The notes under the pieces were generated by a model. That model did not search any database and was not told the DNA's origin. It was given only the letters and a program-made list of their open reading frames with translations. From a virus, in the IMG/VR virus record IMGVR_UViG_3300046820_000595, positions 1 through 60,967 of that record: a DNA stretch of 60,967 nt; one strand, 5' to 3'. Each line of letters starts with the position of its first letter. Position 1 is the first letter of the stretch. The position numbers and the translations under genes are program-made. Shown here one piece after another: positions 98 to 53,906 of the stretch.

Positions 98-111
98 TTT
101 AGCCGTCTAAA
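98..111 (+). repeat. TTTAG-N4-CTAAA palindrome, copy 1
   Basis: TTTAGCCGTCTAAA lies 2 nt after the tRNA CCA end and 3 nt before the ATG at 115. It takes the place where a ribosome binding site would be. It is one of 12 copies in the window (see findings). Confidence 0.85.
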
Positions 112-114
112 AAA

Positions 115-966
115 ATGTCAAAGTCATTATTAGGTAAAGCATTTCAAGTTGCTAAGAAAGACGATTCAGCAAGAGTCGTATTAAAAAATAATGCTCCATC
201 CACAAAACAAGCATCAGTTAAATTAGGCAAAGCGTTTCAACCTAATGATAATTCTCCATTTGCATCCGCAAATAATTTCTTTGGAGGACTTTCTGGCAAC
301 ACTGTCAAACTCCCCAATAAAATCAATCTTACCAAAAAAGAAATTGCTAAATTTGAACGACCACCAGTAAGCGAGCAGCTCGTAGAGCAATATAGTCCAC
401 TTGAGAGAGCTGTTCAAAATTTAGAGACTCTTAACGATTTGGCATCAGGCGCTTTATTTGTCAATTCATTGGCTTTGTCTAATCCTAATGCTGCTTCATT
501 GCCAAAACCATTTAAGTCACTAAATAAAATTGCTGGCAAAATTGGAGCAAAAAATGATTATGCCGACGTAGCTCTTTGGGCTGTTGATGCAAGCAGAGCT
601 TTACTTGATCCAGAATACAGATCCGAAATAGACAAGGGAATCAATAGGTTTATGGACTCAGGACTTGAAGGATCTGACATGGTTGCGCAAGCTCTTCAGT
701 ATGGGGCGCAAAGGCCAGTTGGTCACGCTGCTGGTTTAATGCGATCATATCAAAATACAGCTAAAGAGCAAAAACGACTTGATGCTGAAAACGTTGTTCT
801 TGATCAAAAGCTTAAAAAAAAGAAAGAGGACAGCAAGTCAGCAATTATTCCAAAGGGATCAAAAGTTGATGATCAAAATGTTGGCAAGTTCAAAAAAGAA
901 GAAGAAGACGCGCTTAAAGCGGCAAGAGATTTTTTCCTGAAATCCAATCAGCAATCCATAATGTAA
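115..966 (+). CDS. hypothetical 283-aa protein, probably virion-associated
   Basis: No family is recognised. The N-terminal half is low-complexity and basic/polar, with the hexapeptide LGKAFQ occurring twice (about residues 6-11 and 37-42), a short internal duplication. The middle is Ala/Leu-rich and helical. Residues about 215-250 are highly charged and Lys-rich, consistent with a coiled coil or disordered tail. The ATG at 115 is chosen because it follows a palindromic motif copy by 3 nt and the ORF has no better start. The gene is bracketed exactly by two copies of the TTTAG-N4-CTAAA motif (98-111 and 967-980), like a discrete cassette. A virion role is inferred only from its place upstream of structural genes. 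Confidence 0.8.
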   Translation: MSKSLLGKAFQVAKKDDSARVVLKNNAPSTKQASVKLGKAFQPNDNSPFASANNFFGGLSGNTVKLPNKINLTKKEIAKFERPPVSEQLVEQYSPLERAVQNLETLNDLASGALFVNSLALSNPNAASLPKPFKSLNKIAGKIGAKNDYADVALWAVDASRALLDPEYRSEIDKGINRFMDSGLEGSDMVAQALQYGAQRPVGHAAGLMRSYQNTAKEQKRLDAENVVLDQKLKKKKEDSKSAIIPKGSKVDDQNVGKFKKEEEDALKAARDFFLKSNQQSIM

Positions 967-980
967 TTTAGCCGCCTAAA
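967..980 (+). repeat. TTTAG-N4-CTAAA palindrome, copy 2
   Basis: TTTAGCCGCCTAAA begins 1 nt after the stop codon of the 283-aa gene. It ends 45 nt before the ATG at 1026, almost the same spacing as copy 3 (46 nt) before the ATG at 7936. Confidence 0.85.
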
Positions 981-1025
981 GAAACGTCTTGAATTATTGG
1001 CGTTATTTGCTAACTTCGTGCAGGT

Positions 1026-5555: not shown

Positions 5556-6883
5556 CTAGGCTTATCGCACTCTACTGGGACACTAACCCGACAAGGATGG
5601 CTGAAATCAACCATGCTTTATGGCAAAACGTCCAAAACCCTGACATTGACGAAGTGGTTCTTTTGATTTCAGAAGGAACGCAAAGTCGTTTGCCTGAGAA
5701 TCCTAAAATCCGATACATCGAGCTTCCAACGCAGCGACCAACCTACAAAGAAATTTTTGACACTGCCAACTCGTTGCTCACTTCTCCACATGATCGCACA
5801 GTCCTGATAAACTCAGATTGTTATTTCGAGGTAGGAGATTTGGCAAAACTGCAAGGCGCAGACTGGCGGCAATTCATGTTTGTTGTGACACGCAGAGATG
5901 AGGGAACTGACGGCAACGACCTTTGGTACACTGGGCAAGACGCGTGGATATTTACAGGGAGAATCCGCCCGATGAAGTGGCTTGATTTCACCCCTGGCAG
6001 TCCCAAGTGCGACTGGTATTTAGCGTGGCTTGCGAGACATGCTGGGTATCTGATTGCCAACCTCGAAGGTGACATGACGTTGTGGCATCTTCACAAAAGC
6101 GAAATACGAACGCTAAATCCCATTGTTTCTCCCCCTCGGCATTTGCAAGTCGGGGAGATACGCGAGATCAAGCCCACTCGCTTGGCGAGCATTCCACACC
6201 CGCAAAATGTCCGCACAGGAGTCATAGCTTACTCTCTTTACGGAAGTGAAGCGATTTACTTGCACGGTGCTTGCATCAATGCCGAAATGACCCGACACAT
6301 CTACGCAGGGTTTATCCCACGTTTTTACATCGACGAAACCGTGCCATGCGACATTGTAGCAAGGCTTGTCGAGTTACATTGTGAAATTGTTTGGATGCCG
6401 CGACACGAAGGACACGAAGGCGCATTGTGGAGACTCAAAGCGTTAGAAGACCCTAGTGTAGATTTTGTTTGCATCCGCGATGTCGATAGCAGATTGTCAT
6501 ACCGAGATCGAACAATGTTCGAGCAATGGGTGCAATCAGGGTTTGAATATCACGCTGTCCGAGATCACCCATGGCACAAAAACCCCGTAATTCTCGCGCA
6601 CTTCAATTCGCGCAAGGCTTTCACACTCCCAACCATGGAAGGGCTGTCAAAAAGCTACGGGCAAGACGAATGGTATTTCGCCAATAGGGTTCTTCCTTTG
6701 CTTGGCGATTCGGTAGCATACCACGACACTTTTTGCTCGTCAGCTCCGTTGCAAGGCGCAAAACTGTTTTCGCATCCCCTCAGTGAAGACTGGTCTTACT
6801 ATGTAGGAGTAAAAATATGGCCCGACGAGGGCATGGACCCAGCAACGCTTGCCCCGATATTTCCAAACACAAATACCAATTAA
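5552..6883 (+). CDS. two-domain glycosyltransferase (443 aa)
   Basis: The N-terminal domain begins with a Rossmann-like strand (RLIALYWD) and contains a TVLINSDCYFE stretch like the nucleotide-sugar-binding acidic motif of GT-A enzymes. The second half contains FVCIRDVDSRLSYRDR, an acidic DxDSR signature as in hexosyltransferases, followed by aromatic-rich segments with WxxxPVIL-type composition. This suggests two fused glycosyltransferase-like modules. The ATG at 5552 is preferred because it overlaps the upstream TGA. Substrate unknown: virion Ser-rich proteins or host surface glycans. Composition is GC-richer than the 8-28 kb block. Confidence 0.72.
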   Translation: MTRLIALYWDTNPTRMAEINHALWQNVQNPDIDEVVLLISEGTQSRLPENPKIRYIELPTQRPTYKEIFDTANSLLTSPHDRTVLINSDCYFEVGDLAKLQGADWRQFMFVVTRRDEGTDGNDLWYTGQDAWIFTGRIRPMKWLDFTPGSPKCDWYLAWLARHAGYLIANLEGDMTLWHLHKSEIRTLNPIVSPPRHLQVGEIREIKPTRLASIPHPQNVRTGVIAYSLYGSEAIYLHGACINAEMTRHIYAGFIPRFYIDETVPCDIVARLVELHCEIVWMPRHEGHEGALWRLKALEDPSVDFVCIRDVDSRLSYRDRTMFEQWVQSGFEYHAVRDHPWHKNPVILAHFNSRKAFTLPTMEGLSKSYGQDEWYFANRVLPLLGDSVAYHDTFCSSAPLQGAKLFSHPLSEDWSYYVGVKIWPDEGMDPATLAPIFPNTNTN

Positions 6884-6884
6884 A

Positions 6885-7865
6885 ATGCTACTTGACTACT
6901 ACGACCGCATCATTGTTATCAATCTCAAGCACAACCCTGACCGCCTAAAACGACTGCTCAAGCAAATTGAACCTTACGCGCCCGAAAGCAAGATCCGCGT
7001 GCAAGAGGCAATTTACGGGCAAGAGCTTTTTGCTCCTGCATGGTGGAAACAAGGAAATGGCGCATGGGGATGCTTGCAGAGCCATATCAGAGCGTTGCAA
7101 GACGCATGGCAATCGGGAGACGAAAAAACCCTCATCATCGAAGATGATGCCATTCTTGACGCAAACGGATTTGATTACTTTCAAGTGCTCATCAACAACT
7201 GCCCCGACGACTGGGCGCAAATGTATCTCGGGGGACAACATCAGCATCAACCAGAGATTGAAGATGGGTATTTCATCGGCAGAAGTGTAAACCGAACCCA
7301 CGCCTACGCCGTGCAGAGACATGCCATACCCAAAATTCTGCAACACATTCAGCATTACCCTGACTACGGAACATGGAGGCATGTCGATCACCAGCTAGAA
7401 CTCGCGCACATGCGGAAAGACTGGAAAGTCGTTTGTCCTGTTTGGTGGCTTTTTGGGCAAGGAGAAAACAAGAGTGGAATCAATGGCAGAAGTCACCCTG
7501 ATAAATGGTGGGACTGGGCAGATCCAGAGATGATAAAAGAATATCCGTGGGTAGTTGTAGACGACACCACGAATGAAGAGGAACTAGCAGCGTGTCGCCA
7601 CGCTCTACATTTCGGTTGGTCATTGGCGCAAGACGGGAAGACCGACGTAGGGATGCAGCTTGGCATGTCAAAAAGAAACCGATCAAACCTGACAAAAGCG
7701 ATTAACACCATTGCAAGAGAGGCGTGGGATATGAGAAAGCTCCCTGCTGTTTATTTCGGAAACGAAGATTACAGAGACGTGTTTCTCAAAACGACAAACC
7801 CTAAGACATTGCCATTATCAGAAGTAGGTATTTTTGATTTCAAAAAATGGTCTAATGAATTTTAA
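6885..7865 (+). CDS. glycosyltransferase family 25-like protein (326 aa)
   Basis: The start IIVINLKHNPDRLKRL is the classic opening of GT25/LPS-biosynthesis-type transferases. It is followed by GAWGCLQSHIRALQ (the conserved GCxxSH segment) and LIIEDDAIL (the EDD acidic motif). The rest contains Trp-rich segments and a less recognisable C-terminus after about residue 210, which may be a separate domain. The ATG at 6885 lies 1 nt after the stop of the upstream transferase. An upstream extension would overlap that gene. The GC-richer run ends here, exactly at a palindromic motif copy (7876-7889). Confidence 0.85.
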   Translation: MLLDYYDRIIVINLKHNPDRLKRLLKQIEPYAPESKIRVQEAIYGQELFAPAWWKQGNGAWGCLQSHIRALQDAWQSGDEKTLIIEDDAILDANGFDYFQVLINNCPDDWAQMYLGGQHQHQPEIEDGYFIGRSVNRTHAYAVQRHAIPKILQHIQHYPDYGTWRHVDHQLELAHMRKDWKVVCPVWWLFGQGENKSGINGRSHPDKWWDWADPEMIKEYPWVVVDDTTNEEELAACRHALHFGWSLAQDGKTDVGMQLGMSKRNRSNLTKAINTIAREAWDMRKLPAVYFGNEDYRDVFLKTTNPKTLPLSEVGIFDFKKWSNEF

Positions 7866-7935: not shown

Positions 7936-8604
7936 ATGTCTCAGTCGCTTACATTTGCGGAAGCTCAGCAGCGTTTTGCCAACCTAGTTACAACTGAGGT
8001 GAATATTGCCGATGCAATTCAGGAAGTTGTTGATCGCGCTTATGAAATGGGGCGCTGGAGAGGTATGACTGAAGAGATTGTATGCAATAACAACCCCAAT
8101 GTGACATTTGTTGAAAATACGGAAAAGGAAGAAATTTACATTGATTTCAATCCAGACATATTTGATGGCGCTATTGGGTTTAGATACAAGTCCCGTGGGT
8201 ATTACATCAAAACATTGATTTCTCTTTATCAAGAAGACCCGAGCGTAGGCATTGGCTATTTCATTGACCTTGGTGATGTTGTAGTTAACAATGTCATTTA
8301 TCGTCGCTATCGGATGCCGCTGCACTGGCAGATGCCCACAGAGCCTCTCTACGCCCTCATGAAGAAGGTTAGCATCAACCCACTAGAAGATGACACGATC
8401 CTCCCAATCAAGAGCATTGGCGCGTTAAAGGCTGGCATTCTTGCCGTAGCATACGAAAACGTAAACGACATTGAGAGATCGGAGATTCACTGGCAAAGAT
8501 TTGCTCAGCTTATGGAGAAGGCTCAAAAGCAATACAATGGCAATCGTAAGATTCACATTCGTATCAATGACAACATGAAGAAACGTCCAACGCAATTCAG
8601 ATAA
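7936..8604 (+). CDS. putative head-tail connector/adaptor-like protein (222 aa)
   Basis: The C-terminal part (about residues 150-205) reads as a LKAGILAVAYENVNDIERSEIHW pattern followed by a Lys-rich helix. This resembles the C-terminal helix of podoviral adaptor/tail tubular A proteins, where an L(K/A)xGxLAxxYExxxDxxxAxxYW pattern is common. The N-terminal part is helical with a basic RWRGM segment, and the middle is beta-rich. Assignment is by motif resemblance and by place in the virion block. It could equally be an unrelated structural protein. The next gene follows as TAATATG. Confidence 0.5.
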   Translation: MSQSLTFAEAQQRFANLVTTEVNIADAIQEVVDRAYEMGRWRGMTEEIVCNNNPNVTFVENTEKEEIYIDFNPDIFDGAIGFRYKSRGYYIKTLISLYQEDPSVGIGYFIDLGDVVVNNVIYRRYRMPLHWQMPTEPLYALMKKVSINPLEDDTILPIKSIGALKAGILAVAYENVNDIERSEIHWQRFAQLMEKAQKQYNGNRKIHIRINDNMKKRPTQFR

Positions 8605-11530: not shown

Positions 11531-14500
11531 ATGATCAATCCATTTGAAGACGAAATTTTTACAGCTCCTTCGATTGCCAAAGCTCCTGATGACGCAATTG
11601 CTACAGAAGAAGATGATAAAAGCAAAGAGGAAGTTGATAAAAATTATGATTACTATGGCATCAATTTGCCAGACGATAAGAATCCCTTCAAAAAGATTGA
11701 TGCGGCTTCATGGTTTACTAATCCAGAGGCAAGAAAACAACAAGCTGCTACGCTTGCTGAGCAAATAGCAGATGAATACGAAAACTCTGACGTTACAGTT
11801 CCAGTCATTAGGAATGGTAAGGTAGAGCAAGTAAAGGCATCTAATAACGGCGTTTTAACTGATGCAGGGCAACATGCGCTGGCTCAAACATTGATGATGA
11901 TTGATCAAGCCAGCAAAGACCCTAGTGGTGGCGCAAGAAAGAATCCATTAACTGGCAAGACAGAAGCAGCTTTTGGCAGTAAGTTCCTGACTCCTTACAA
12001 TGCTGATGAGAAACTTGCTGAAAGAGAAAAGAAAAGAGTTGCTGGAGAAAAAGGTGAATACGGCGCTACTGAATATCAATTAAGCAATGATCAAGTTTTT
12101 GATTATGGACACGTATCCAAGGTTATTGATGCTTACGCAAAAATCAATGATGTTAAGCCAGATGAATTGAATCCTGAGAGCTTTGATGCAAAGAGCTTTT
12201 TGGATTTGCGCGGCAAGGTTAAACAAGCTCTTCCAGAAGGAATGCTTGAGCTTGGTGCTGAACTAGATCAAACCAAGGCTCCAGTTCTAGATGACAAGTC
12301 ACAAAAGATTTTTGATAAAGCTCTTGGCAGGTATTTTGCTGAAAAGAAAATGGGCGACAAACTTGTCGATGTTTATGATGGTCAGCCAATTGTAAATTAC
12401 GAAGCTCTTGCTGAAACTGGTGATCTTAAAAGATTTGAGTCTGAATTAAATGGGCTAGAACTAGCTCCTTCAGCTAAAAAGATTTTTCTTTCTTCATTTA
12501 AGAAGGAGTTTGAAGGGCAAGCTGCTAGCTTGTTACTTAAGCAAGCTCAAGGAGATATTTACAGTGATGATTCGACAAAGCCAATTTTAGAAGCTGCTGA
12601 AAAAGGACAAAGTTTTTATAACCTACTTAAAGAAGATCCATACGCATTGCAGTCTACTGGAAGCAACACGCTAGACTTCATGAAAAGAGTAGCAGATCAC
12701 GCAACTAGCATTACAGCAGGGGCTACATCATCAATTGGAAGCATAGGGCAAATGTTTCTTGCTGGCGGAGCTAAGGCAATGGGATTTGACGAATATGCAG
12801 CAGATGTAGTTTCTGGCATTGCTACTGTTTCTGATCAAATTGGCGCTTTTAGGGAAACTCGTGGTTTTGGAAAAGATCAACTTGATTTAGGATTGTTTAG
12901 TGTTACAACTGGGGATATTCATCAATTGATAAGTGAAGGCGCTATTGCTTTTGCAACAATGGGTGCTTCTGCATTATTGTCCTCATCAAGAATTGCGGCA
13001 ACAACCACAATTAAGGGTGCTGTCAACATCGGCCTTCAATCTGCTGCTAAAAAGATCACCGAAAAATCTGCCAAGTCTGCATTGAGTTCTCTTTCTCAAA
13101 ATTTAATTAAGTCCCAATCAGTTATTGGTTCCGTGTGGAAGAATGCTAGCAAAGCAAGAACATTGGATAATGTATTGGCAACCACTCTTGAAGGATCGTT
13201 CCGTTCAGCCGCATCCGCTTGGGGAGAGTCATATCAGAAAAACATTGATAAAGGCCTTTCTAATGTTGATGCGTTTAATGATTCAACTGGTCAAGCGGTG
13301 GCTAATGGATTGGCAACATTTGTTGCTGGTGCAATCATGAACTCAATTGCTCCAGGTCTTGATAAAATCAATGTTGCACCTGATTCAGGTTTATCGTTAA
13401 CGCAAGCAATTAAAAACACAATCGCAAATAGGGCTGCGCAGAAAAGCATTTCAAGTGGTTTGAAAAGCTTCCGTAATAACATAAAGAATAGAAATGATCT
13501 CGTAAAAGGAGTTGCTGATACAATTCGTGAAGAGGCTTCTAAGCAGGGGCTTAAAAACTATCTTGGTGGAGTTGCTGTCCAAGGACTTGGTGAAGGCATA
13601 GAGGAATCAATGGATGCTGCTTTAGCCAATGCTTTGGATCAATACTTAAACAATTCTGAGGAGGCTCGTAAAGAGTTTGAAAAGAAAGGGTATTGGAATC
13701 AAATAATTAAAGCTGGTTTCCTTGGAGCTATTATGGGTTCTGGCATGAGCACGATTTCAAGAACTTCTGATAGGAATCTGCAAATTGCCGAAGACGCAAA
13801 GGCAGCGATGTCTAGTTTCATAAAGAAAGTTCCAGAGTTGGCTAAGTATGCTGATCAAGAAATTATTGTTCAGGGCGCTAAAAAGGATGCTCCTGAAATT
13901 AAAACTACGATCAATCAGATCCTTCAAAACGGCACTTTGGACCAACAGGTAGAAGCTATTGCTAACATTGGTAAGACACGCGCTCAAAATCTTCTTTCGC
14001 CAACTAAAGTGGGTGGGACACAAGGCACTGGAATTACGCCAGCAGCAGACGCGCAAACTTCATTAGCTGAGAATAAGCTACCTACTGCCGATGCTACTCC
14101 ATCTTTAGAAACTGGTTCTGCTCCAGTAGAAGAAACTGTCTCTCCGTTTAAGAAGTCTGCTACTGGCGCTGTTGATTTCAAGACTGCTGAATTTAATGAC
14201 ACTGATAAAGGCGTATCATTTGAGGTTTCTTCTAATGCGCCTAAATCACAAGGACTTCAATTAAAGATTGCTGCCACTCCCAAAACTGTTGATGGCAATG
14301 TGGAAGTTGAATGGTCGATTGAAAAAGAAACCCAACCTAATTCTGGACAATATCAGAAGATGAGAGCTAATGGTAGAGATTCTGCCGTAAAAGCATTTGG
14401 AGAAGAGTTTGTTGCTGGTATTGAAGCATCGCAAAAACAAGCTGCTGGAGCTGACCCAGTTGCTTCACAATCTGCTGTTACGGCTCTTAATAGCCAATTG

Positions 14501-23500: not shown

Positions 23501-26500
23501 GGCGATGTCAAAATGGCATTGAGAAAGAGTGCAGAATTCGCTAGCGCTGAACTAGGCGCTGAAAGAGAAGGCTTTTCTCACATTATTGCTAGTAATATAG
23601 CAAAACAAATTGACGACCTGAATGACCAGAGAGAAGCGCTGCTTAGAGCATTGGCTCGCCTTGAGGTTGAAAGCAAGGGGGAAAGTATGACATTAATGCA
23701 GCTGAGTAAGAAGTTTTCATTTGATGAGAAATCAACTATTGAGCGCATTCAAAGAACTGCTTCTCCTCAATTTGACGCAAGACTCAATCTTGTTTTTGAT
23801 ACAAGAAGACTAGACAATAGCCCAGATTCAATGGCTACCAAGAAGAGAATTCTTAGCAGCGTTGCTATCATCAATGAGGCCGCGAGACTATTCCTTGAGA
23901 AAGAAGGAGAGAACATGCACCGCGCATTGTATGAGGATGTAGAAATGTTTGGTCAAGGATACGACCTTATTCAGGACTTTAACAATGTCATTGACTTGGC
24001 GCGTTTAAGAAACTCTTTGCAATTTAGGGCAGATGAAATGTTTGCATTCCGCGCCGATGAGGCATTGAACACTCTTGTCACTGAAGCCGATGAGAAGGCT
24101 GTTCAATTGTTCGGGGTCACGGTGCAAGACATGGTGACAAACAATATGTCTCCCGCTGTTGTAGAAATTGTCAAGGATGGGCAATTAACTAAATCCCATG
24201 TAATTAGAGAAAGTAAAAATGATGAAATAGAGGAGCGAGAAATGAAGCTAGAGACAATTGGGCTTCATAACATCGTAAGTAAAAAAGAAAGACTAAGAAG
24301 AACCGCATTGTTTATCAATGACCAGTTTTCTTCCAGTATGTTTATGCCAACAACTACCAAGCTGGCGGAGGAGAACAACAAGTCCTACTTGGTTTACAGC
24401 ACTAACGCTAGAAATGAACTAGCTAAGAACAAGAGACAAACCAAAGCCGACTGGAATGTAGATGAGAAGCTCAAAGAATTAATCTTCCAAGCTGCACAGA
24501 ATCCGCCATCTAGGGGAGAAGGGGGACTAAAAACCCAAACACACAAAAAAATCACAACTGATCTCAACAAACAAATCAGCGACTCTTTAGCCAACGAAAC
24601 AAAACTTCCAAAGGAAACTACTGTTGGCGAATTGATCAAGATTGCTACAAACAGATTCACCTCATTCCTTATTAAGAACACAATCAATAAGGAGATGGGC
24701 GCTTTTGCTCAAGGCATCCGTGTGAATGGCTCGATCAAGCGGACACGCGCCATGAGTGACGAGGAATTTGAAACTGCGTTTGATGATGTGTTTGCATTTG
24801 CTTCAAATCCAGACAATGACGCGACCTTGCAGACTGCTGGCTTTGAACGTCTGGGCAAGAAAAAATCAGACTACTCACTGAGTGAAAAGAAAAACTTGGT
24901 GGAGAAAGCTTATGCGGCCGCAATTAAGGAAAACGACTTCCTTGATCCTGACAGCAAGGTTAGCCAGTCTATTGCGTTTTATGAAAAGCAGTTGGTTGAT
25001 ATTGTCACCATGCTTAACAGTGATGAGATTGGACCTCAAATGGGGAACTTTGCAGAATACATCAGAAGCGCTGAGCGTTCAATTGGAAAATTGGTCAACA
25101 TCCAAACAGCTGTAGATTCTGCATCAGAAGTTAATCCATACACTATTAGTCGCGCTGTCATGGACTTAGATTTGAGTCACAATTGGTCACGCCTGTATTC
25201 AATCCTTTACGGACGAGAAACACTCAACAAGCTAGTTACTGGCGCTCTTAACGCTAAAACAGATGACGGGCAAGTTACTACTTTTAGCGCTCACGAAAAT
25301 GCCTTAGTTCGCCGCAAATTTTCAAAAAGTTATGGAGCATACAATGAAGCTCTAAACCTCATTGGATTGCTTGACCATGGATTGGACGGAAGTAGTGGTA
25401 GAAACCGTTTCAGCGCTGAATATCAGTCATTCCAAGATAGAGTTGGAAAGGCATCTAAAAACCTTAATAATGACTTCGTGAAAGGCGCTAAAGCCATGGT
25501 TATTGCTTCGCTCAGAGGTATTGCTGTAGCAAATGAAAAAGACAATGGATCAAATGCTCAATACGCCAACAGAGTTTGGATGTGGGCAAACGCTTGGAAA
25601 AACGGAATGAAGCAACATGAAAAACTTGAGAATGATCGTCAAAAAGCACACGAGCAAGGAAACAAATTCATGCGCTTTAGCAACAGAATCATGAAGAGGG
25701 GGCGCAAGCAAGACAGGGAGAGAGCTGGAACTGAATTGATTAACAATCTCATTACTGATGAAGTAAACTCAATCGTCAACATCATTAACATCAATCACAC
25801 TAAGCCAGAAATGCTTAATGCAAGAATTGAAGCAATGATTAGCAAGCTTGAGTCTGGATACGAACCTTCAGACCTTACTGCAATTAGAGAATATTCTGAC
25901 GCATTGCTGTCTGAATTCACGGAAATCAGTGAAGCATACAGAATTACTCAGGCATTTGCTAGCCGCGACAACAGAACTAAAATCTCTGATGAGCAACTAC
26001 TTGACTCCACAGTCATTTCTGATGTTTTGTCTAAAAATTATTCTGTGTTCCCATTGCGTTTTGGATACGTAAAGAATCCATTGCACGTAAGCCATGAGGC
26101 ATACAGCCACAATAAAGCTCCAATTACGGACTTTATTGGAATGGAACAAGGTGTGATTAACTACCAAGGAAAACGAACTGGCTTAATGGAAGAAGAGTCG
26201 GATAAAGATGCTATTCGACCACTGGACTTAAATCCCTTCACGGCTCCTGACCAAATCGCTAAGGATGCAATGTATCGCATGTATGTTGCGCCTACTTACA
26301 AAGTAATCAACAAGTTGCTCGGCAAGAGTTCAACCGACAATGCAAGACAATCTATTACAACAAATGGATTTTTGCACGGCGTAGCTAATGCTACAAACAC
26401 AGATAGCGAAACAACTTCTAAATATCCATATATCGCGGCATACATCATGGATACAATCGACAAAACGATTAAAAATGACAAGCCAGAGAATGTTGAAGAT

Positions 26501-33446: not shown

Positions 33447-33847
33447 TGGTTAATTGTTTTTTTATTAAATTCAGCAATAGCTTCTGTAACTGAAACTAAT
33501 CCGATAATATCTGAAATTGTTCCTACAAGACTTGTGACCAAGTTAACGTGCATAGCATCTGCTAATGGAATCAATGAGATGAAACGTTTAATTTCTTTCT
33601 CGATGATTTCATAGCCGCGATTATCGCTAGCGGTGTCAATTTTTTTGAGTTCTTCGCTCATTTCTCCACTACTCCTAATATCCTCAGTGAGTGCTCCTTG
33701 AATATACGAAGTTAGCTCAATAAAATTGAAGACGATATCTTTTAAGTGCTGATCTTCATCACTCCATTCTCTGTCTTCACTGTGTTCTCGTTCAGGTTTA
33801 TCACTAGGTCGCCCTGTGGTTCCATCAATGCTTTGGTTCTCTTCCAT
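33443..33847 (-). CDS. hypothetical 134-aa protein, long overlap with upstream gene
   Basis: N-terminal 35 residues are acidic, polar and probably disordered. The rest is helical with two hydrophobic helices (HLKDIVFNFIELTSYIQGAL and NLVTSLVGTISDIIGLV). The only ATG before the protein-like region is at 33847, giving a 106-nt out-of-frame overlap with the 3' end of the 324-aa gene. The overlapping part encodes the disordered N-terminus, as is typical of overprinting. Function unknown. Confidence 0.65.
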   Translation of the reverse strand: MEENQSIDGTTGRPSDKPEREHSEDREWSDEDQHLKDIVFNFIELTSYIQGALTEDIRSSGEMSEELKKIDTASDNRGYEIIEKEIKRFISLIPLADAMHVNLVTSLVGTISDIIGLVSVTEAIAEFNKKTINQ

Positions 33848-34716
33848 AAGTTGCTTTCTTTGTCGTAAATGACGTAATCCACAGTAGCGTCTTTGCAGGC
33901 TGCAATTAGGTCTTTGATTTGTGATTTGTCAGTCAATCCAATAATAACTGAATTGCCTAGTCGTTTAATAATGCTAGCCATGCTGCGCACATCTTTAGCG
34001 GAAAGATCAAGCTCAACTGCTTTAGAAAGCAATAGGTCTTTGTCTTCTTTTTCAATCTTGGCGTAATATGCTTCTTTGTGGTGACTGAAGGACAATGGAT
34101 ATTTACGTCCATTATATTCCTTAAACACCCCAACGGCAGTAACGATTGTGTTGTATGCTTTGTCTGAAATCTCAGAAACTTGGCTTACGTCAAACTCATT
34201 GCCAAAGTAGCCTTCGAGTTCTGCTGTAATGCTGCCAAGTAGCCATGTTGAGTAGTCGTCAATTTTGTTTGTGGTTTCACGCGCAACAAAGATGCGATCA
34301 ATGACTTTGTATGCTTGTTCAAGAGTTGGTGGATTGTCAGCACGTAGAGTTGCTTGGCCACCTTCCCTGATAACAAAGTGCTCTGAAATAGGATTGGTGA
34401 CAATCTGAATCATCGCTGCAACATCGTCAGCTTTGTCTTCTGCTTGACCTTCTACAACTTCTTGATATGTAATTACTTCCATGGGCGCGAAGTCGTCACA
34501 TGCTTCTTGTGGCGCTTCTCTCGACAAGCAGACAATGAACTCATCTACTTTCTTCTTGAGAACGCCAGTGTAAGCATCGCTTTTGATACTTTTTCCAGCT
34601 CGATAATTAGCAATCAGTTCTGAAATAATGTCAAAAGGAATCGAATACTCCTCGCTAAGGAATGGGATTTCTTCGTCATTTACAATGACTCCATCTAGAT
34701 AAATGTCTTCACTCAT
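33742..34716 (-). CDS. hypothetical 324-aa protein
   Basis: Acidic alpha/beta protein of unknown family. Contains a helical N-terminal region (FDIISELIANYRAG), a central segment with LEQAYKVIDRIFVARE and YNGRKYPLSFSHHKEAYYAKIEKEDKDLLLSKAVELDLSAKD, which reads like a compact DNA-binding or regulatory module, and a short beta-rich C-terminus. Located between primase-helicase and DUF932, so a replication-linked role is plausible but unproven. The 3' 106 nt are also used in another frame. Confidence 0.75.
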   Translation of the reverse strand: MSEDIYLDGVIVNDEEIPFLSEEYSIPFDIISELIANYRAGKSIKSDAYTGVLKKKVDEFIVCLSREAPQEACDDFAPMEVITYQEVVEGQAEDKADDVAAMIQIVTNPISEHFVIREGGQATLRADNPPTLEQAYKVIDRIFVARETTNKIDDYSTWLLGSITAELEGYFGNEFDVSQVSEISDKAYNTIVTAVGVFKEYNGRKYPLSFSHHKEAYYAKIEKEDKDLLLSKAVELDLSAKDVRSMASIIKRLGNSVIIGLTDKSQIKDLIAACKDATVDYVIYDKESNLWKRTKALMEPQGDLVINLNENTVKTENGVMKIST

Positions 34717-36422: not shown

Positions 36423-36956
36423 ATGAGAGCATCTGGTATTTCAGTTAATCCACCTGTAAAGGTGATGTGGGAGGGGAGAATTGTTCCTGTAAGTGATCCT
36501 AGACTGTCAATTAGGCATTTGGATATTCCATTTGAAAAGCGTGATGCTTTTTACAAAGCGGTTTACGATGTTGCTCCTTACCTAGTTACTGATGTCGAGG
36601 CAATTACGCCTAAACGTGTTCATTTTGGTGAAGTTCAACAATACCTCAAGGCACTAAAGTCGCGTTGGGTGGACTCAAGGATTCCTTTAGCCGACGAAAA
36701 GACGGCTGTTAAAAGAGCCAAGATTTGCGCTGAGTGTCCTGAGAAGGTCAAGATTTCTGGTTGCTTTGGTTGTAGTGGTGTATCCAAACTTCTTTTGCAT
36801 ATTCCAAGAGACTTTTTTGCACATAACATAGGATGCGGCAAATGCTCTTGTTACCTGAATAACAAAGTGTGGATGTCTGAAGAAGTGCTTAATGTTGACA
36901 ATAGGGATATTGAATACCCTAGTCATTGCTGGATGAATGAGGCAAAATATCCATAA
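36423..36956 (+). CDS. Cys-rich zinc-binding phage protein (177 aa)
   Basis: Contains the cysteine array ICAECPEKVKISGCFGCSG ... IGCGKCSCYLNNKVWMSEE ... SHCWMNE, consistent with two zinc-knuckle sites and typical of a conserved phage family of unknown function. The N-terminal 100 residues are a globular domain with FGEVQQYLKALKSRW. The ATG at 36423 is used because upstream extension would run antisense through DUF932. This is one of two places where a + strand gene interrupts the - strand operon. Its 3' end overlaps the convergent gene at 36919 by 38 nt. A one-mismatch palindrome motif (TTTAGCCGACGAAA) lies at 36686-36699. Confidence 0.75.
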   Translation: MRASGISVNPPVKVMWEGRIVPVSDPRLSIRHLDIPFEKRDAFYKAVYDVAPYLVTDVEAITPKRVHFGEVQQYLKALKSRWVDSRIPLADEKTAVKRAKICAECPEKVKISGCFGCSGVSKLLLHIPRDFFAHNIGCGKCSCYLNNKVWMSEEVLNVDNRDIEYPSHCWMNEAKYP

Positions 36957-43833: not shown

Positions 43834-44063
43834 ACGTTCTCCTTTCTTGCTGCGAGCATTGCGTCTGCGTATTCGAAAGAGGCCTTTACGACTGTTTCAG
43901 GTCTTACATCTATAGGATTCGCTAAAATCCCCTGCAAAGCCGCCGCCGCGAAGTAATCGCGCAGGGTCATGCCTTTTTGAGCTTCGATGATGCTCGAAAC
44001 GCCTTCCGCTGTTCTGGTTACCATGCTTGAAGCAATCGGCCCTCCATCGTCAATCTTACTCAC
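43830..44063 (-). CDS. conserved small phage protein with RDYFAAAALQG motif (77 aa)
   Basis: GMTLRDYFAAAALQGILANP and ASFEYADAMLAARK are the hallmark of a small protein family common in phages infecting many hosts, with no known function. Starts and stops overlap its neighbours by 4 nt (ATGA). Confidence 0.85.
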   Translation of the reverse strand: MSKIDDGGPIASSMVTRTAEGVSSIIEAQKGMTLRDYFAAAALQGILANPIDVRPETVVKASFEYADAMLAARKENV

Positions 44064-44347
44064 TTAGCACCTCCTTTCACGGCGGCGAGGGCTTTTTCAA
44101 GCTGCTCAATAGTCTTAGTCGTCACCGCTCCACGCTTGGCGTGTTCGATTGTGTATCTATTTGCCGCCGTGGCAAGATTGTCGCGCTGCTTCTGGATCTC
44201 ATCAAGCTCTTTTTCTAGCATCCCTGAGAAACGATACATGCCAGCAATTATCAGCCTAAGGGCTTCTTCAGTGTTGTAGTTCCCATTAGGGATCGCTTTC
44301 AGTCTCTCAAACTCTTTGTCTGTTCTTGGCATTTTTTCTTCGTCCAT
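44060..44347 (-). CDS. coiled-coil protein (95 aa)
   Basis: Heptad-like sequence from residue 35 to the end (LEKELDEIQKQRDNLATAANRY, TIEQLEKALAAVKGG). The ATG is 2 nt downstream of palindrome copy 8, whose - strand sequence TTTAGCCAACTAAA directly precedes the start. Function unknown. Confidence 0.72.
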   Translation of the reverse strand: MDEEKMPRTDKEFERLKAIPNGNYNTEEALRLIIAGMYRFSGMLEKELDEIQKQRDNLATAANRYTIEHAKRGAVTTKTIEQLEKALAAVKGGAK

Positions 44348-44373: not shown

Positions 44374-44751
44374 TTACAAATTCGCGAGGAAATCAGAAGA
44401 CAGTTTATTTTCATAAGCAAGATTAAACAATCTTAGTTTCCATTCTTCGGGGGCGCTATAATCATGAATGTTCTGAAGATCCATAATTAAGATTTCATGT
44501 CGATCTGGAACTTTACCTTCTAATACCAATGTTTTCCATTGAGTGTTTTTGTTTACATCATCAAAGCTTGGGTCGTATTCACAGTCGGAAATCAAGCATC
44601 CAGCAGCACATTTCAATCCTTCTTTGCTTCGATAAGCGCAACCTGTTAATCCTTTGGAACGTGCTTTCTGAGTTAATAAATGAACAGCCACTTGGTCAAA
44701 AACTTCTTGAGCCGTAGCGTCATTCAATGTTTTCAGTGTAATTTTTTTCAT
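44374..44751 (-). CDS. paralogous small protein A, CaYR...CAxG family (125 aa)
   Basis: MKKITLKTLNDATAQEVFDQ, then CAYRSKEGLKCAAGCLISDCEYDP and a helical C-terminus. It shares the cysteine-containing block (CxYR...KCAxGxxI.D..YDP) with the protein at 48140-48511, and more weakly with 47755-48135. The start at 44751 is chosen because only from there does the N-terminus match the paralog. Confidence 0.72.
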   Translation of the reverse strand: MKKITLKTLNDATAQEVFDQVAVHLLTQKARSKGLTGCAYRSKEGLKCAAGCLISDCEYDPSFDDVNKNTQWKTLVLEGKVPDRHEILIMDLQNIHDYSAPEEWKLRLFNLAYENKLSSDFLANL

Positions 44752-44785
44752 TGACTTGTATTTTGTTTGATTTAATTTGAAACCC

Positions 44786-45070
44786 ATGGACAAGAAGCCC
44801 ATGATGAAAAAGCTAGGTCTTGAAGGTTACAACAAACCCAAACGAACCCCAAGCCACCCCAAGAAGAGCCATGTTGTTATGGCTAAGGAAGGAGATAAGA
44901 CTAAATTGATTCGTTTTGGTGAGCAAGGCGCAAGCACGGCTGGCAAGCCTAAAGCTGGTGAGTCTGAGCGCATGAAACAAAAGAGAGCGTCGTTTAAGGC
45001 GCGTCATGGAGCTAACATTGCTAAAGGCAAAATGAGTGCTGCGTGGTGGGCCTCGAAAATCAAATGGTAA
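44786..45070 (+). CDS. DUF6321-like basic phage protein (94 aa)
   Basis: KSHVVMAKEGDKTKLIRFGEQGAS ... RASFKARHGANIAKGKMSAAWWASKIKW closely follows the DUF6321 pattern found in many aquatic phages. Lys/Ala/Arg-rich. First of a + strand cluster of small basic proteins inside a - strand region. The ATG at 44786 is 9 nt inside the longer frame, which opens with TTG. Confidence 0.85.
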   Translation: MDKKPMMKKLGLEGYNKPKRTPSHPKKSHVVMAKEGDKTKLIRFGEQGASTAGKPKAGESERMKQKRASFKARHGANIAKGKMSAAWWASKIKW

Positions 45071-46696: not shown

Positions 46697-47053
46697 TTAT
46701 ACAAGGTCTTTGACGAATTTTCCGTTAACCATTTTGCCTGTGCGCTTAGAAATAACGCCATATGCTTTCTCGGTGCATTCTTCTAGGCTAATGTTTAACA
46801 TCATACAAATTCCCACAAGGGTCACTACGATGTCACCAATGCCATCCTCAATCTCTGCAAGAATCTCATTCTCTTGGTCATGAGTATCAATGGAAAATGA
46901 TTTTCGCAGTAAGCGGGTTTGAAGGAGACGCGCCAAAGCAATCTTTGTTTCATCTACTTCTTCTTGTGTTTTCTCGATTTGTTTTAGCGGATTACTGAAT
47001 GCAATGATTTGCTTATCAATAAACCATTGTTGGATTAGTGGTATTGTGTTCAT
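46697..47053 (-). CDS. MazG-like nucleotide pyrophosphohydrolase (118 aa)
   Basis: EKTQEEVDETKIALARLL and ENEILAEIEDGIGDIVVTLVGICMML give the EExxE...ExxD helical NTP-PPase motif of MazG, with ...AYGVISKRTGKMVNGKFVKD downstream. It would remove (d)NTPs or ppGpp-like alarmones, a common phage countermeasure to starvation. The ATG at 47053 overlaps the upstream stop (ATGA). Confidence 0.87.
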   Translation of the reverse strand: MNTIPLIQQWFIDKQIIAFSNPLKQIEKTQEEVDETKIALARLLQTRLLRKSFSIDTHDQENEILAEIEDGIGDIVVTLVGICMMLNISLEECTEKAYGVISKRTGKMVNGKFVKDLV

Positions 47054-47376
47054 GATTCTTCCCATAGGTTAAGTGTTTTCAAAAAGGCTTCTGCTCTTTG
47101 CGCGGCGGTGGCAAAAACGCTGTCTGCCCATGTGAGGTATCTATCGTTCCTTGGTGCGTCAGCAAGAATGTCTAAGTATTTTTGCTCATCATTTTCTGAT
47201 AGCGTTTTTTCCGCTTCGTTCATCGCGTTAAGGTCTTCTGGGTAATTAGGAGGGTCGTATGATGCATTTCCCGATGGGACGTGTAGCCAATCCAGTATTT
47301 TCGCGGTATGCGGTTTAGGGTTAGGAATCCACCCACAAGCCTCAGCTATCTTGATTCGTTGTTGTTCTGGTGTCAT
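47050..47376 (-). CDS. phage ABA sandwich-like protein, copy 1 (108 aa)
   Basis: IKIAEACGWIPNP ... PNYPEDLNAMNEAEKTLS ... ATAAQRAEAFLKTLNLWEE matches the pattern of phage ABA-sandwich (DUF2591-type) proteins. It is a tandem duplicate of the next gene, with which it shares long identical stretches at both ends. The ATG at 47376 overlaps the upstream stop (ATGA). Confidence 0.83.
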   Translation of the reverse strand: MTPEQQRIKIAEACGWIPNPKPHTAKILDWLHVPSGNASYDPPNYPEDLNAMNEAEKTLSENDEQKYLDILADAPRNDRYLTWADSVFATAAQRAEAFLKTLNLWEES

Positions 47377-47753
47377 TCTTCCCATAGGTTAAGTGTTCTT
47401 AAAAATGCTTCTGCTTGTTGTTCTGCTGTAGCATCAAGCAATGTTTCTACATCCCATTCATTACGATTTACAATGCGCCCTTTAATAATGTTCGCGAGGT
47501 GATCATTGAATATGTAACGATATCCCCAGTCCTTTTTCCATAAAGCTTGTTTAGCTTCATGCATCGCGTTGAGGTCTTCTGGGTAATTAGGGACTTCAGC
47601 GTATGTTGCTGCACCACCATGATGCTCTTCACAATACCAGAGCCTGACTCCATTTGGATCGGGTTTGCCTTTACGCGTTGTTCTGCGTAGCGGCATGATG
47701 CGAAATAAACCACAAGCCTCAGCTATCTTGATTCTTTGTTTTTCTGGTTTCAT
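47373..47753 (-). CDS. phage ABA sandwich-like protein, copy 2 (126 aa)
   Basis: Same family and same terminal motifs as copy 1 (IKIAEACGLF, PNYPEDLNAMHEAKQAL, ATAEQQAEAFLRTLNLWEE) but with a divergent centre. Start codon lies immediately after palindrome copy 9 with no gap, TTTAGCCAACTAAAATG on the - strand. Confidence 0.83.
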   Translation of the reverse strand: MKPEKQRIKIAEACGLFRIMPLRRTTRKGKPDPNGVRLWYCEEHHGGAATYAEVPNYPEDLNAMHEAKQALWKKDWGYRYIFNDHLANIIKGRIVNRNEWDVETLLDATAEQQAEAFLRTLNLWEE

Positions 47754-48139: not shown

Positions 48140-48511
48140 TTATTCAAAGATTTCTGTTACGATTCCAAATCTGTCAGCAAGTGACTTCAATTTGTCTTCC
48201 CATTGAAATTCTGGGTAAGTGTCGTGAATCGACTGGAGCATTGTAAGCAATTCTAAATGATCGCTGATTTTGATTCTTTTGTCTCTTACTAAGCATTGAA
48301 TTGCCGAGTCGGAAACCATATCAAATACTGGATCATACTCATCATCTGCAATAATTACTCCTACGGCGCATTTAAGGCCATCTTCCCCCCTGTAAGCGCA
48401 TTTACCATTGTTCATGCACCTTTGGTTTTGATTGAGCAAATGCTGCGCTACAAACTCAAATACTTCTTGAGCTGTTGAATCTTTTAGGTTGGCTAAAGTG
48501 ATTGTTTTCAT
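48140..48511 (-). CDS. paralogous small protein C, CaYR...CAxG family (123 aa)
   Basis: MKTITLANLKDSTAQEVFEF ... CAYRGEDGLKCAVGVIIADDEYDP closely matches the protein at 44374. The pair looks like an old duplication. The start overlaps the 29-aa gene as ATGA. Confidence 0.75.
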   Translation of the reverse strand: MKTITLANLKDSTAQEVFEFVAQHLLNQNQRCMNNGKCAYRGEDGLKCAVGVIIADDEYDPVFDMVSDSAIQCLVRDKRIKISDHLELLTMLQSIHDTYPEFQWEDKLKSLADRFGIVTEIFE

Positions 48512-49906: not shown

Positions 49907-51490
49907 TCAACTAAAGCGAAGCTTCTTCTTCGCTACGTGTTGAGCTTTCTTGAGTGACCCTGTAAGCTCAAGCGCCCACACAATGGACGCAAGGCGGGGT
50001 GACATATTGGAAGCATTGAGCTTTTTAGGCTCTTTAGTCGGCGCAACTGCGCGATGCCCTGAAGCATTAACGCATACAGTTCCGTATTGACCACGATGCT
50101 TCTCAACAACTGGTGCAGTAATAAGACATTCTGGGATGTCATTGACAATCTTGATGTTGTCTTTCGGTGCTACATAGTCTGACACTGGCAAGAACGTATC
50201 TTGACGCACTGGGTTACGTGCTGGAAGTCGATACTGATTCTTGATTTCGTATGCGGATGGAACACCGAAGAAGCGCTTGCGATTCATCTTGCTGCCACGA
50301 ACATTGAAATAGGATTTCTCCACATTTGGATATTCTGTGTAAGCAAGACATTCTTCTAGCGCGTCGAACATGTAAGCATGTTGCCAATGCGCTTCCATTT
50401 CGCTAATACGGGCGATTTCAGCCTCATTGACGTGTCCCTTGGCTCCTACCATGTATTTCTGGTAAAGCTCCTTAGAACGCTGTTTTACGCGCTCATGGAT
50501 AAGGTCTACCCATTCGTCTTTGACAGCGCCATTGGTCATGAAGTCGATAAGCTCGCCATTTTCGGCGGCTAAATCCATCATGATAAGCTCTGTGGGAGTC
50601 ATGGTTGATTCATCCATCTTCTCGCCGTTGTATTCCATCATGAATTGAGCTTGATGTGATTCATCGAACTCGAATCCATAATCCATTGCCATTTCATCAT
50701 CTTCCTCGCGGATGAGTCCCTTGATAAGAGAATACTCAACTTCGGAGATACTGGCTGCTTGATTGTGAACGTCACCTGTGATGACCTCACCAGCCTCTGT
50801 TACGGCAAAGCGCGATGGCGTAATCTTCGCATCACGCATGGGTGTGACAAGAACAACCCATTGATTGCCAATCTTGGCTGTAACGGTTGTCCCTACAAGA
50901 TCATCGTTATTGCACAAGGCTTTTACGATGTGAGTCCAGTCACCATTAATCCTACGACCGAGGCGCGTAGCAACTGCTTGCATTGCGCTTGTTGGGTTAT
51001 CGTGGAGAACTGGGGAGAACTTGCCATCCTGCGTTCCAAGATCGACACGGATGTCGCCGTGCTTGAATACATAGCGAGCAGGAACATGCTTGAATGTATT
51101 GTTCTTGGTCAATCCACCCTTGAACGGAGGGAACTGAGTGAACATGGCATCAACCCACTTACCACCAACCTTAACGGCGGGGTCAATTGATTGATATGAC
51201 TTACGTAGGTTATTGCTAACCCACTTACGGATGCTCTTCTGACGCTCTATGCAGCAGAATACTATGGCAATAGCTGCGCGAGGATCATACTTCTCCTCAT
51301 TGCAGATTGCTTGCAATTCACGGCGCAAGCGAGAAGGAACAGCACCAAGGCTATTCACTACCCAGTTACGGACGTAGGGCGGGAGAAAGCCACGCTGAAG
51401 CATAGCATACTCCGTATCGCTGATTAAATTCTGCCCATACGAATCAGCGTAAACGTATGGTTCTTCAGTTGTGTTGGTTATTGTCATCAT
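49907..51490 (-). CDS. hypothetical 527-aa protein, first gene of the leftward early block
   Basis: The largest early protein without recognised function. Helical N-terminus with Cys pair (IVFCCIERQKSIRKW), a beta-rich centre (GNQWVVLVTPMRDA, GEVITGDVH), a long acidic helical stretch (MDYGFEFDESHQAQFMMEY), and a C-terminal region ending in basic KKAQHVAKKKLRF. It is the promoter-proximal early gene, transcribed divergently from terS with a palindromic operator candidate between, so a regulatory, host-takeover or replication-initiation role is plausible. There is no motif match to known replication proteins. Confidence 0.7.
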   Translation of the reverse strand: MMTITNTTEEPYVYADSYGQNLISDTEYAMLQRGFLPPYVRNWVVNSLGAVPSRLRRELQAICNEEKYDPRAAIAIVFCCIERQKSIRKWVSNNLRKSYQSIDPAVKVGGKWVDAMFTQFPPFKGGLTKNNTFKHVPARYVFKHGDIRVDLGTQDGKFSPVLHDNPTSAMQAVATRLGRRINGDWTHIVKALCNNDDLVGTTVTAKIGNQWVVLVTPMRDAKITPSRFAVTEAGEVITGDVHNQAASISEVEYSLIKGLIREEDDEMAMDYGFEFDESHQAQFMMEYNGEKMDESTMTPTELIMMDLAAENGELIDFMTNGAVKDEWVDLIHERVKQRSKELYQKYMVGAKGHVNEAEIARISEMEAHWQHAYMFDALEECLAYTEYPNVEKSYFNVRGSKMNRKRFFGVPSAYEIKNQYRLPARNPVRQDTFLPVSDYVAPKDNIKIVNDIPECLITAPVVEKHRGQYGTVCVNASGHRAVAPTKEPKKLNASNMSPRLASIVWALELTGSLKKAQHVAKKKLRFS

Positions 51491-51564: not shown

Positions 51565-52041
51565 ATGAAAATTGATAAACCACGGCGGGGAAGACCACCA
51601 CGGATTGCAGACGAAATCTGGGAAGATATTGAAACCAGATACGTTGCAGGAGAAAATTCGCTCAAGGAATTGGCTGCGGAATACAATCTCTCATACGAAA
51701 CTGTAAGAGACAGAAGCAAGCTGAAGCGTTGGCCGAGTGCCAAGAGAATCGAACATGCTTTATCCCGCACGGATTTACCCCCATCTGACGCTGCTAAGCA
51801 AATCGCAGACAAATGGGCGGAGCGAAAGGAACAAATGAGAGAGAGAATCTACCAAGGAAGCAAACGCGCATTAGATACATTCTTTGCTCTCTCACCTATC
51901 CCTCAGGATTGGGCTGAAGCCGAACGCGCGGCGAAATTACTTGATAAAGCAATCAACCCAGAGGAAGGCAAACAAGATAGCAACATCAACCTAGCTATCC
52001 TCACTAATGGCTTTAACCCATCACCAATAGTCGATCTTTAG
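51565..52041 (+). CDS. terS: small terminase subunit (158 aa)
   Basis: AT-hook KPRRGRPPRIAD at the N-terminus (about residues 7-15), then a helix-turn-helix SLKELAAEYNLSYETVRDRSKLKRWP (about 32-55), a coiled-coil-like middle and a short acidic C-terminus. Assigned by the order with large terminase and portal. A transcriptional regulator is the alternative. Unusually, 1.9 kb separates it from terL. Start 7 nt after the proposed -10. Confidence 0.72.
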   Translation: MKIDKPRRGRPPRIADEIWEDIETRYVAGENSLKELAAEYNLSYETVRDRSKLKRWPSAKRIEHALSRTDLPPSDAAKQIADKWAERKEQMRERIYQGSKRALDTFFALSPIPQDWAEAERAAKLLDKAINPEEGKQDSNINLAILTNGFNPSPIVDL

Positions 52042-52652
52042 CCAATATCCCCATCTCCTTAACGCCATTCACTCATACCATTAACCAAATCTTACCCGAT
52101 TTATGCCTTATTTATGCCCAAAAAAGGCTACAAACAGGAATAAAAGTGGTAGATGAGCAGAAAATCTGTCTATTGTGGTTAAACTTGGCTAAAGAAATGG
52201 CGTAAATCAGGGGAAATTGGGTGTTTTCCCGTGTTTTTGGAGACAAAACTTGGCTAAACTGTAATTTAGTTGGCTAAAGTGTTTGCCTGTAGAGGGAGGA
52301 TTAGTTGCGCAAAAGCTAGGGATCACCCATGATTTTACGAAAAACTTACGTTATGACGCATTTTTTCCTTGATCAGGGGGCATTCGCCCATCCATTACTA
52401 GTACATGTGCTAACGCTAATGAATAATCATTAACATTAAACATGCGCATTGATAACCAATTTGACAATAATGGTGGGGTCTAGCCCTTGGGTGTTTGCCT
52501 GCCATTAACGCGCATTAGCCCATTAGCTACGTCACGTCTTTGCCTGCTACTCCTCCAATTGTTTAAGACCATAGAGGTCAATAAAGGAACTACTTGTGGT
52601 AGCGCCCAAGACAACGCACCAGACATAAGCCTGATGCGCTGATGATTGGATG
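52042..52652 (+). other. 611-nt non-coding region with motif cluster (possible origin or packaging region)
   Basis: No ORF of useful length. It holds palindrome copy 10 (52265-52278), two copies of AAACTTGGCTAAA (52181-52193 and 52246-52258), repeated TTTGCCTG sequences (near 52281, 52493 and 52540) and an AATGA-ATAA-TCATT inverted repeat near 52421-52434. Such a region between terS and terL could contain a replication origin, a pac/cos site or late promoters. The sequence alone does not separate these. Confidence 0.5.
52265..52278. repeat. TTTAG-N4-CTAAA palindrome, copy 10
   Basis: TTTAGTTGGCTAAA within the terS-terL gap, 84 bp from the first of two half-matching AAACTTGGCTAAA sequences. 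The three share GGCTAAA. Confidence 0.85.
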
Positions 52653-53373: not shown

Positions 53374-53387
53374 TTTAGTTGACTAAA
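53374..53387. repeat. TTTAG-N4-CTAAA palindrome, copy 11
   Basis: TTTAGTTGACTAAA, 66 bp upstream of the 64-aa gene start on its - strand side and within the region leading to terL. It overlaps a CGGGT/ACCCG hairpin (53386-53402). Confidence 0.85.
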
Positions 53388-53505
53388 CGGGTTTATAACA
53401 CCCGAATACGTGTCTGGGCTTGGAACCAGAACTGCCGCATTACACCGCCGAAGCGATGTCCTCTGCGAGGATGAGCAGTTTTAACGCCTTGCTCAGGGCG
53501 ATGCC

Positions 53506-53754
53506 TTACCAGCTTCGAGTAACCAAGCATCGCTTGACTATCTCTGCGATTGTATTGTCAATCTCCTGAACCGCACTCATAATGAATCCAGTGCCAGAGC
53601 CAAGACCGCAAGGCACTGACCTGCAATCAGCAGGATGCTTGTTCTCATGAGGGAACGATCCATCAGGAAGCAAGGCTAGTAATCTTTCCTTCCTTGCTTG
53701 CAGTTCATTGATTGCAGTTGCAGCGGATGTCGGTAGTTCTAGTATCGTAGTCAT
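53506..53754 (-). CDS. small helical protein (82 aa)
   Basis: MTTILELPTSAATAINELQA then ERLLALLPDGSFPHENKHPAD and IMSAVQEIDNTIAEIVKRC. Leader AATACAATACTATG lacks a Shine-Dalgarno sequence. Probably a real early gene but unrecognised. Confidence 0.5.
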   Translation of the reverse strand: MTTILELPTSAATAINELQARKERLLALLPDGSFPHENKHPADCRSVPCGLGSGTGFIMSAVQEIDNTIAEIVKRCLVTRSW

Positions 53755-53892
53755 AGTATTGTATTGTTGTGTGTAGCTCAAGGGGGCCACGGGTGTCACC
53801 TGACTCCCCAATAGCACCAAACTCACTACACAGACTGAAGGGAACATTCATGAAAAAATTCTCGTAAAAAAATTTCCGCATAAAAAAATCCC

Positions 53893-53906
53893 TTTAGTTG
53901 GCTAAA
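53893..53906 (+). repeat. TTTAG-N4-CTAAA palindrome, copy 12
   Basis: TTTAGTTGGCTAAA ends 60 nt before the terL ATG (53967). A run of A and a GTGGGTGT repeat lie between. Positioned as a regulatory site for the head-gene transcript. Confidence 0.85.

Follow-up and report, generated by a model that had tools for sequence, protein, structure and literature searches.

The palindrome TTTAG-N4-CTAAA recurs through a 60,967-nt stretch of viral DNA (IMG/VR record IMGVR_UViG_3300046820_000595; hereafter the window, to which positions refer unless another genome is named), and related phages share a wider family of such sites, of which this is the form found in one lineage. We put at about 60% the probability that a phage-encoded regulator binds these palindromes, the likeliest candidate being a 324-aa protein with a predicted helix-turn-helix domain of the ParB/Noc/KorB type.

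The phage family to which the window belongs is apparently undescribed and known from metagenomes alone. Its terminase and portal (53946-59422) gave no match in Pfam, PHROGs or 50,697 phage records; the terminase, portal and ParB-like proteins have no relative among named phages, and the terminase and the ParB-like protein have none in 84,980 bacterial and archaeal genomes. A Shine-Dalgarno signal is absent in eight genomes of the family (2-16% of genes vs 8-17% at random positions), so the host probably comes from a group that does not rely on one.

Copies of the palindrome in the window

All 12 exact copies listed in a preliminary description of this DNA were confirmed (Table 1). One hundred dinucleotide-preserving shuffles contained 0.17 copies on average and 2 at most, in line with its estimate that chance would give well under one and far from an equal frequency in shuffled sequence, which by its own criterion would have spoken against the motif. 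With up to one mismatch allowed, the window holds 20 copies vs 3.4 expected. Two of the three near matches described earlier are one-mismatch copies, while the one at 48483 proved to be a 15-bp form. The centre is indeed usually YYRR (10 of 12, the exceptions being CCGT at 98 and CCGC at 967) and, as had also been described, ten of the 12 are intergenic or span a junction: intergenic DNA makes up just about 8% of the window, yet 10 of the 12 exact copies are not wholly within a gene.

Table 1. Palindromic sites of the window, the gene of the proposed binding protein, and putative capsid genes of relatives that have an upstream site.
Feature	Position	Strand	Context
Site TTTAGCCGTCTAAA	98..111	+	directly 3' of tRNA-Met, 3 bases before ATG of the 115-966 gene
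Site TTTAGCCGCCTAAA	967..980	+	immediately 3' of the stop of 115-966
Site TTTAGCCGACTAAA	7876..7889	+	flanked by 6849-7865 and 7936-8604
Site TTTAGCCGACTAAA	18038..18051	+	within the 5498-aa giant ORF, sense
Site TTTAGCCGACTAAA	23342..23355	+	within the giant ORF, sense
Site TTTAGTCAACTAAA	31606..31619	+	right behind the stop of the primase/helicase gene (-); antisense to that gene
Site TTTAGCCAACTAAA	35383..35396	-	stop/start junction; heads the run 35378 > 35070 > 34716, which includes the ParB-like gene
Site TTTAGCCAACTAAA	44350..44363	-	2 bases before ATG of 44060-44347
Site TTTAGCCAACTAAA	47754..47767	-	overlaps a stop codon, abuts ATG of 47373-47753
Site TTTAGCCAACTAAA	52265..52278	-	non-coding stretch
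Site TTTAGTCAACTAAA	53374..53387	-	non-coding stretch, just 3' of the twister-P5 ribozyme
Site TTTAGCCAACTAAA	53893..53906	-	between the 53847 gene (-) and the terminase gene (+)
One-mismatch copy	24586..24599	+	in the giant ORF
One-mismatch copy	36686..36699	+	in 36318-36956
15-bp variant TTTAGCCAACCTAAA, one base longer	48483..48497	-	
324-aa protein, ParB/Noc-type helix-turn-helix domain predicted (residues about 128-254)	33742..34716	-	proposed binder
Putative capsid gene with upstream site, G019	6326-7783		
Putative capsid gene with upstream site, G024	57260-58729		
Putative capsid gene with upstream site, G026	21270-22763		

Several other features lie near individual copies. A lone half-site TTTAGCC follows the 52265 site by 6 bases (52252-52278). 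The non-coding stretch upstream of the terminase gene contains a twister-P5 ribozyme (53414-53467, - strand; Rfam RF02684, 51 bits, E 1e-7) about 26 bases from the 53374 site, and the same flank is conserved beside sites of the relatives L058 and L067. The small early genes 47050-47385 and 47373-47753 (both -) are a paralogous pair, the 47754 site standing directly before one of them, and 44374-44802 and 48140-48511 (-) are a second such pair.

Half-sites and spacers in related phages

Among IMG/VR records, 47 loci encode relatives of the window's terminase. A motif search in related phages, which the preliminary description had proposed, found the exact 14-bp pattern in close relatives (at least 75% terminase identity) and almost none of it in distant ones, which share the arms at other spacings. 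Distant relatives carry the half-site TTTAGCC / GGCTAAA 13-30 times per genome, the second half often weakened to RRCTAAA. A de novo dyad search, run genome by genome, recovered 30 copies of TTTAG-N6-CTAAA in the 76-kb genome G019, 28 of TTTAG-N5-CTAAA in G024 and 13 in G026, 12 of TTAGC-N3-GCTAA in G013 and 15 of TTAG-N6-CTAA in G016. TTTAG/CTAAA arms were the top-ranked dyad in the window, G008, G013, G019, G024 and G026, and no alternative arm sequences were enriched in this search; both arms therefore appear to be read as sequence.

When half-sites are scored as TTAGYY / RRCTAA and the spacer as the base pairs between them, the lineages separate by spacer: 0 in the window; 0 and 1 in G008, G003, G006 and G009; 1 in G013, G024 and G026; 1 and 2 in G014; and 2 in G016 and G019. 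Some genomes thus carry two spacers, and shuffled sequences hold approximately no half-site pairs at these spacings. A spacer-1 form also recurs at the same place within a 78-aa gene of close relatives (58164 in the window, 18929 in L054, 15959 in L058), which could reflect a protein-level constraint (LLAGLN).

Constant arms, near-symmetry and drifting spacing together speak for a dimeric DNA-binding protein and against an RNA hairpin or a T7-type promoter. A hairpin in the RNA, or a translation element, lying directly before start codons would account for self-complementary arms beside an ATG in phages that have no Shine-Dalgarno signals. It would not account for arms that never co-vary, only TTTAG/CTAAA-type arms being enriched, nor for copies within the giant gene that have no start-codon role, and its stem would be 5 bp and AU-rich. 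We rejected this reading on the ground that no alternative arm sequences are enriched, and consider it very improbable.

Direction and placement of the sites

The inner four bases are directional when sites are oriented with neighbouring genes. In the left, + transcribed block of the window the + strand reads TTTAGCCG(A/C/T)CTAAA, i.e. TTTAGCC(G)(N)CTAAA, and in the right, - transcribed block most copies read TTTAGCCAACTAAA or TTTAGTCAACTAAA on the - strand; the site at 31606, just behind the primase/helicase gene, is the exception. Two copies overlap the end of a gene: at 35383 and at 47754 the upstream gene takes its stop codon from the motif (..LAN-stop), with 4 bases in the first case and none in the second before the next ATG.

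These tendencies hold across seven long genomes with 123 sites, of which 71 have an intergenic centre where intergenic bases make up only about 10%. Directional sites are sense in 50 cases vs antisense in 17. The first ATG lies 0-9 nt downstream of 23 of 56 co-directional intergenic sites, compared with 10 of 56 in the reverse direction, a closeness due in part to the short intergenic gaps of phages. No base beyond the palindrome is conserved across lineages, and no -10/-35 or other flank was found around the sites. Orthologous genes share a site across lineages (score 15 vs 4.3; 0 of 2000 permutations): a site stands before the ParB-like gene itself in four genomes, before the portal gene in three and before the gene preceding the giant gene in four. 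In three distant genomes a putative capsid gene (Table 1) has its site 27-30 bp upstream, farther off than the 0-9 bp found elsewhere.

Such positions would also suit promoters of a phage-encoded RNA polymerase, with leaderless or near-leaderless mRNA starting at or just past CTAAA, next to the ATG. The sites are directional, adjoin ATGs and occur in phages with no Shine-Dalgarno signal, and the 15-bp form TTTAGCCTGACTAAA matches the T3 promoter at 12 of 15 positions, a comparison chosen post hoc. Against such promoters, PHROG and Pfam scans of the window's proteins give no RNA polymerase, no initiator or other base is conserved outside the palindrome, near-perfect symmetry and spacer changes of 0, 1 or 2 bp are atypical of such promoters, and no gene start follows the sense copies inside the giant gene. 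A search with PF00940 (T7-type RNA polymerase) found no match in the phages, but the control genomes were silent as well. On balance we regard promoters as a distinctly unlikely explanation.

Sites within the giant gene

A single 5498-aa ORF (11531-28027, +) takes up 27% of the window; scanned in two halves, it gave no Pfam match. Homologues of 14-18 kb are present in all long relatives, and in six of eight genomes the giant gene holds 2-4 sites. Their number exceeds that in synonymous-codon shuffles in the window, G008, G014, G019, G024 and G026 (e.g. 4 vs 0.01), and the giant genes of G013 and G016 have none. No in-frame start codon right after these sites could account for them.

Sites are also spaced more evenly than random in the two densest genomes, G019 and G024 (p 0.001 and 0.003), and in one further genome (0.045). 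Even spacing in three genomes and the excess within the giant gene suggest a second possibility, namely that these sites let a ParB/Noc-like protein condense the phage DNA, anchor it or segregate it, and that they stand at gene starts where stop-containing palindromes are tolerated; the sites of Noc, too, are dispersed around a chromosome (PMC4331003). Gene control is favoured instead by the orientation of sites with transcription, by the target genes that lineages have in common and by the sites that precede the regulator's own gene, and PHROG scans yield no ParA. A purely architectural function therefore seems unlikely to us, and the giant-gene copies together with the even spread leave room for architecture as a second role of a regulator.

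A candidate binding protein

The 324-aa protein is encoded in all 8 long genomes, and part of its sequence is laid out like a ParB helix-turn-helix domain (FDVSQVSEISDKAYNTIVTAVGVF ... LSFSHHKEA). AlphaFold models were built from 8 and from 25 homologues, the 25-row alignment giving a pLDDT of 88, and were aligned to solved structures by VIA-align 2. For the 25-homologue model, DNA-binding domains of ParB, Noc and Spo0J occupy rows 1-9 and 11 of the PDB list (Z 6.6-7.8), and an independent full-length model places them at ranks 1-8 and 10. The best match, Noc bound to its site (6y93), aligns over 110 of 116 residues at 3.5 A with a Z of 7.8; the fold matches to ParB-type domains thus stay below Z 8, and unrelated rows reach 4.2 or less, apart from Raf1 at 5.9-6.8. 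Foldseek E-values for the model were non-significant, and Foldseek alone ranked chance matches first; the ParB signal comes from the VIA-align 2 re-alignment and from the sequence pattern noticed beforehand. Structure prediction thus supports a ParB-type DNA-binding domain at the level of the fold.

Sequence searches with the 324-aa family (Pfam, PHROGs, PDB profiles) gave no relation to ParB. The arms of the KorB operator, recognizable in the phage sites, prompted a search for the KorB domain PF08535, which had no match at the 324-aa gene in 8 genomes and one weak match, in the primase gene of G008. The N-terminal CTP-binding motifs (GERR, ENIQR-like) were found in none of 8 family members, and for that reason we do not file the protein as a ParB. 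Towards the C-terminus, where members of the ParB/Noc/KorB superfamily have their dimerisation domain, the prediction shows a small domain of five strands (about residues 279-321). In the putative recognition helix two residues, N189 and T190, never vary, as would fit a constant half-site contacted by this helix.

With the 324-aa protein as sole query we retrieved 43 loci, many of them close relatives, and 42 contain at least one site, the exception being only 5.5 kb long. They hold 145 sites in 539 kb (2.7 per 10 kb), compared with 1 in 204 kb (0.05 per 10 kb) of control loci that were found through thymidylate synthase or a primase and lack the protein, a co-occurrence that would be equally expected for further core proteins of these phages, the 527-aa protein and the small terminase among them. 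Long contigs outside the discovery set have 14-21 sites each vs 0-1 for the reversed pattern.

The sites may accordingly belong to another DNA-binding protein, be it the 527-aa protein, the small terminase or a host factor. The 527-aa protein (49907-51490, -) is kept in nearly all relatives, its gene divergent from that of the small terminase (51565-52041); the 158-aa protein is likewise conserved in the family, combines a helix-turn-helix with matches to small terminase families. A small terminase, however, needs few packaging sites rather than 12-30, the 527-aa protein matches no DNA-binding family, and a host factor would leave the lineage-locked drift of the spacer unexplained. We judge another binder improbable. 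The winged-helix proteins proposed at the outset are unlikely binders: sites occur in all eight genomes, whereas the protein at 43382 has no homologue in the seven others and that at 45636 has one only in the nearest. The former, moreover, gave only weak winged-helix matches.

Comparison with known systems

KorB silences plasmid genes from operators of the form TTTAGC-G/C-GCTAAA, in which the central base may be G or C. The operator (OB) of plasmid RK2 has arms TTTAGC..GCTAAA (PMC11790492), and the likeness extends beyond these equal arms to many copies over the replicon and a regulator with a ParB-type DNA-binding domain (PMC11790492). One base separates TTTAGC from GCTAAA in the KorB operator, however, as opposed to 2-4 in the phage sites, and the gap from TTTAG to CTAAA is 3 there and 4, 5 or 6 here; since the length of the centre differs, the phage sites are not KorB operators. 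The systems also differ in that one is a plasmid's and the other a phage's, the KorB Pfam domain was not found in the phage protein and CTP-clamp motifs are apparently absent from it.

Stoperators, at which the L5 repressor acts, have a common orientation (PMC6550527). Those of cluster A mycobacteriophages resemble the sites described here in their genome-wide copies, single orientation relative to transcription and lineage-specific consensus that changes along with the repressor (PMC6550527), but are asymmetric, bound by a monomer (PMC9283540) and belong to temperate phages. The phage sites are near-palindromic and no lysogeny genes were found, neither an integrase nor a CI-type repressor being among the PHROG scan matches, so they are not stoperators in the strict sense. 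SAS/ESAS elements of cluster K mycobacteriophages are similar in number (11-19 copies), single orientation, location 3-7 bp before start codons and an upstream stop codon sometimes within the repeat (PMC3203893); in contrast, SAS is non-palindromic and contains AGGAG, ESAS consists of 17-bp inverted repeats with spacers of mostly 4-13 bp, and both are confined to non-structural genes (PMC3203893). In Bacillus phage SPbeta, a 15-bp intergenic repeat (SPBRE) is likewise bound by one phage master repressor, MrpR (PMC10516654), which differs in its tyrosine-recombinase fold and its control of lysogeny. Noc sites (16 bp) are, like the phage sites, scattered, there round a chromosome, and the Noc domain that reads them is the best match of the phage model (PMC8429893); Noc sites and parS differ in their half-site, and the CTPase N-terminal domain of Noc and the membrane or segregation roles were not seen in the phage. 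A dozen or more sites per genome, mostly at gene starts, and a ParB-like protein encoded in every genome checked suggest a genome-wide regulator with its sites. A small number of temperate phages and plasmids have such systems, which are not known from this group, and by analogy the 324-aa protein may be a regulator of the KorB or stoperator kind.

Discussion

Three functions had been proposed for the palindromes at the outset: operators for a phage regulator, a promoter or translation element, and shared cassette boundaries. Operators are the best supported of these, given the drifting spacing, the co-occurrence with a gene and the recurrence of the same target genes. Cassette boundaries are contradicted by copies inside the giant gene and by the want of a conserved flank. 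A promoter or translation element fits the data less well than an operator, if not so badly as to be firmly dismissed.

Our model is that a dimer of the regulator would read two TTTAGCC half-sites, which abut in the window's lineage (14 bp) and stand 1 or 2 bp apart in relatives (15 and 16 bp). Bound where transcription units start, such dimers would control when those units are read, perhaps by repression rather than activation, occupancy blocking or stalling RNA polymerase at gene starts. The sites before the regulator's own gene in several relatives would permit autoregulation by the 324-aa protein. Since sites stand both at the starts of transcription units and at this gene, when or how strongly genes are expressed across the genome is probably set by the protein, much as KorB acts on plasmid RK2 or the L5 repressor at its stoperators. 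As these phages have no Shine-Dalgarno signals, a site abutting an ATG need not disturb ribosome binding. The copies in the giant gene may act on elongation or help to organise the genome.

A bolder version, which we hold to be doubtful and offer as speculation, is that a clamp-less ParB/Noc-type protein serves as both global regulator and genome organiser in these lytic-looking phages, from near-even sites that include those in a 16-kb gene, and that its dimer geometry has been repeatedly re-set (0, 1 or 2 bp) around a fixed recognition helix.

Altogether, an uncultured phage family gains a candidate master regulator and its sites from sequence alone. Constant half-sites with a spacer of 0, 1 or 2 bp amount to a natural experiment on the co-evolution of dimer and operator and, if our reading is true, the use of the ParB-type DNA-binding domain would extend to phage-wide gene control.
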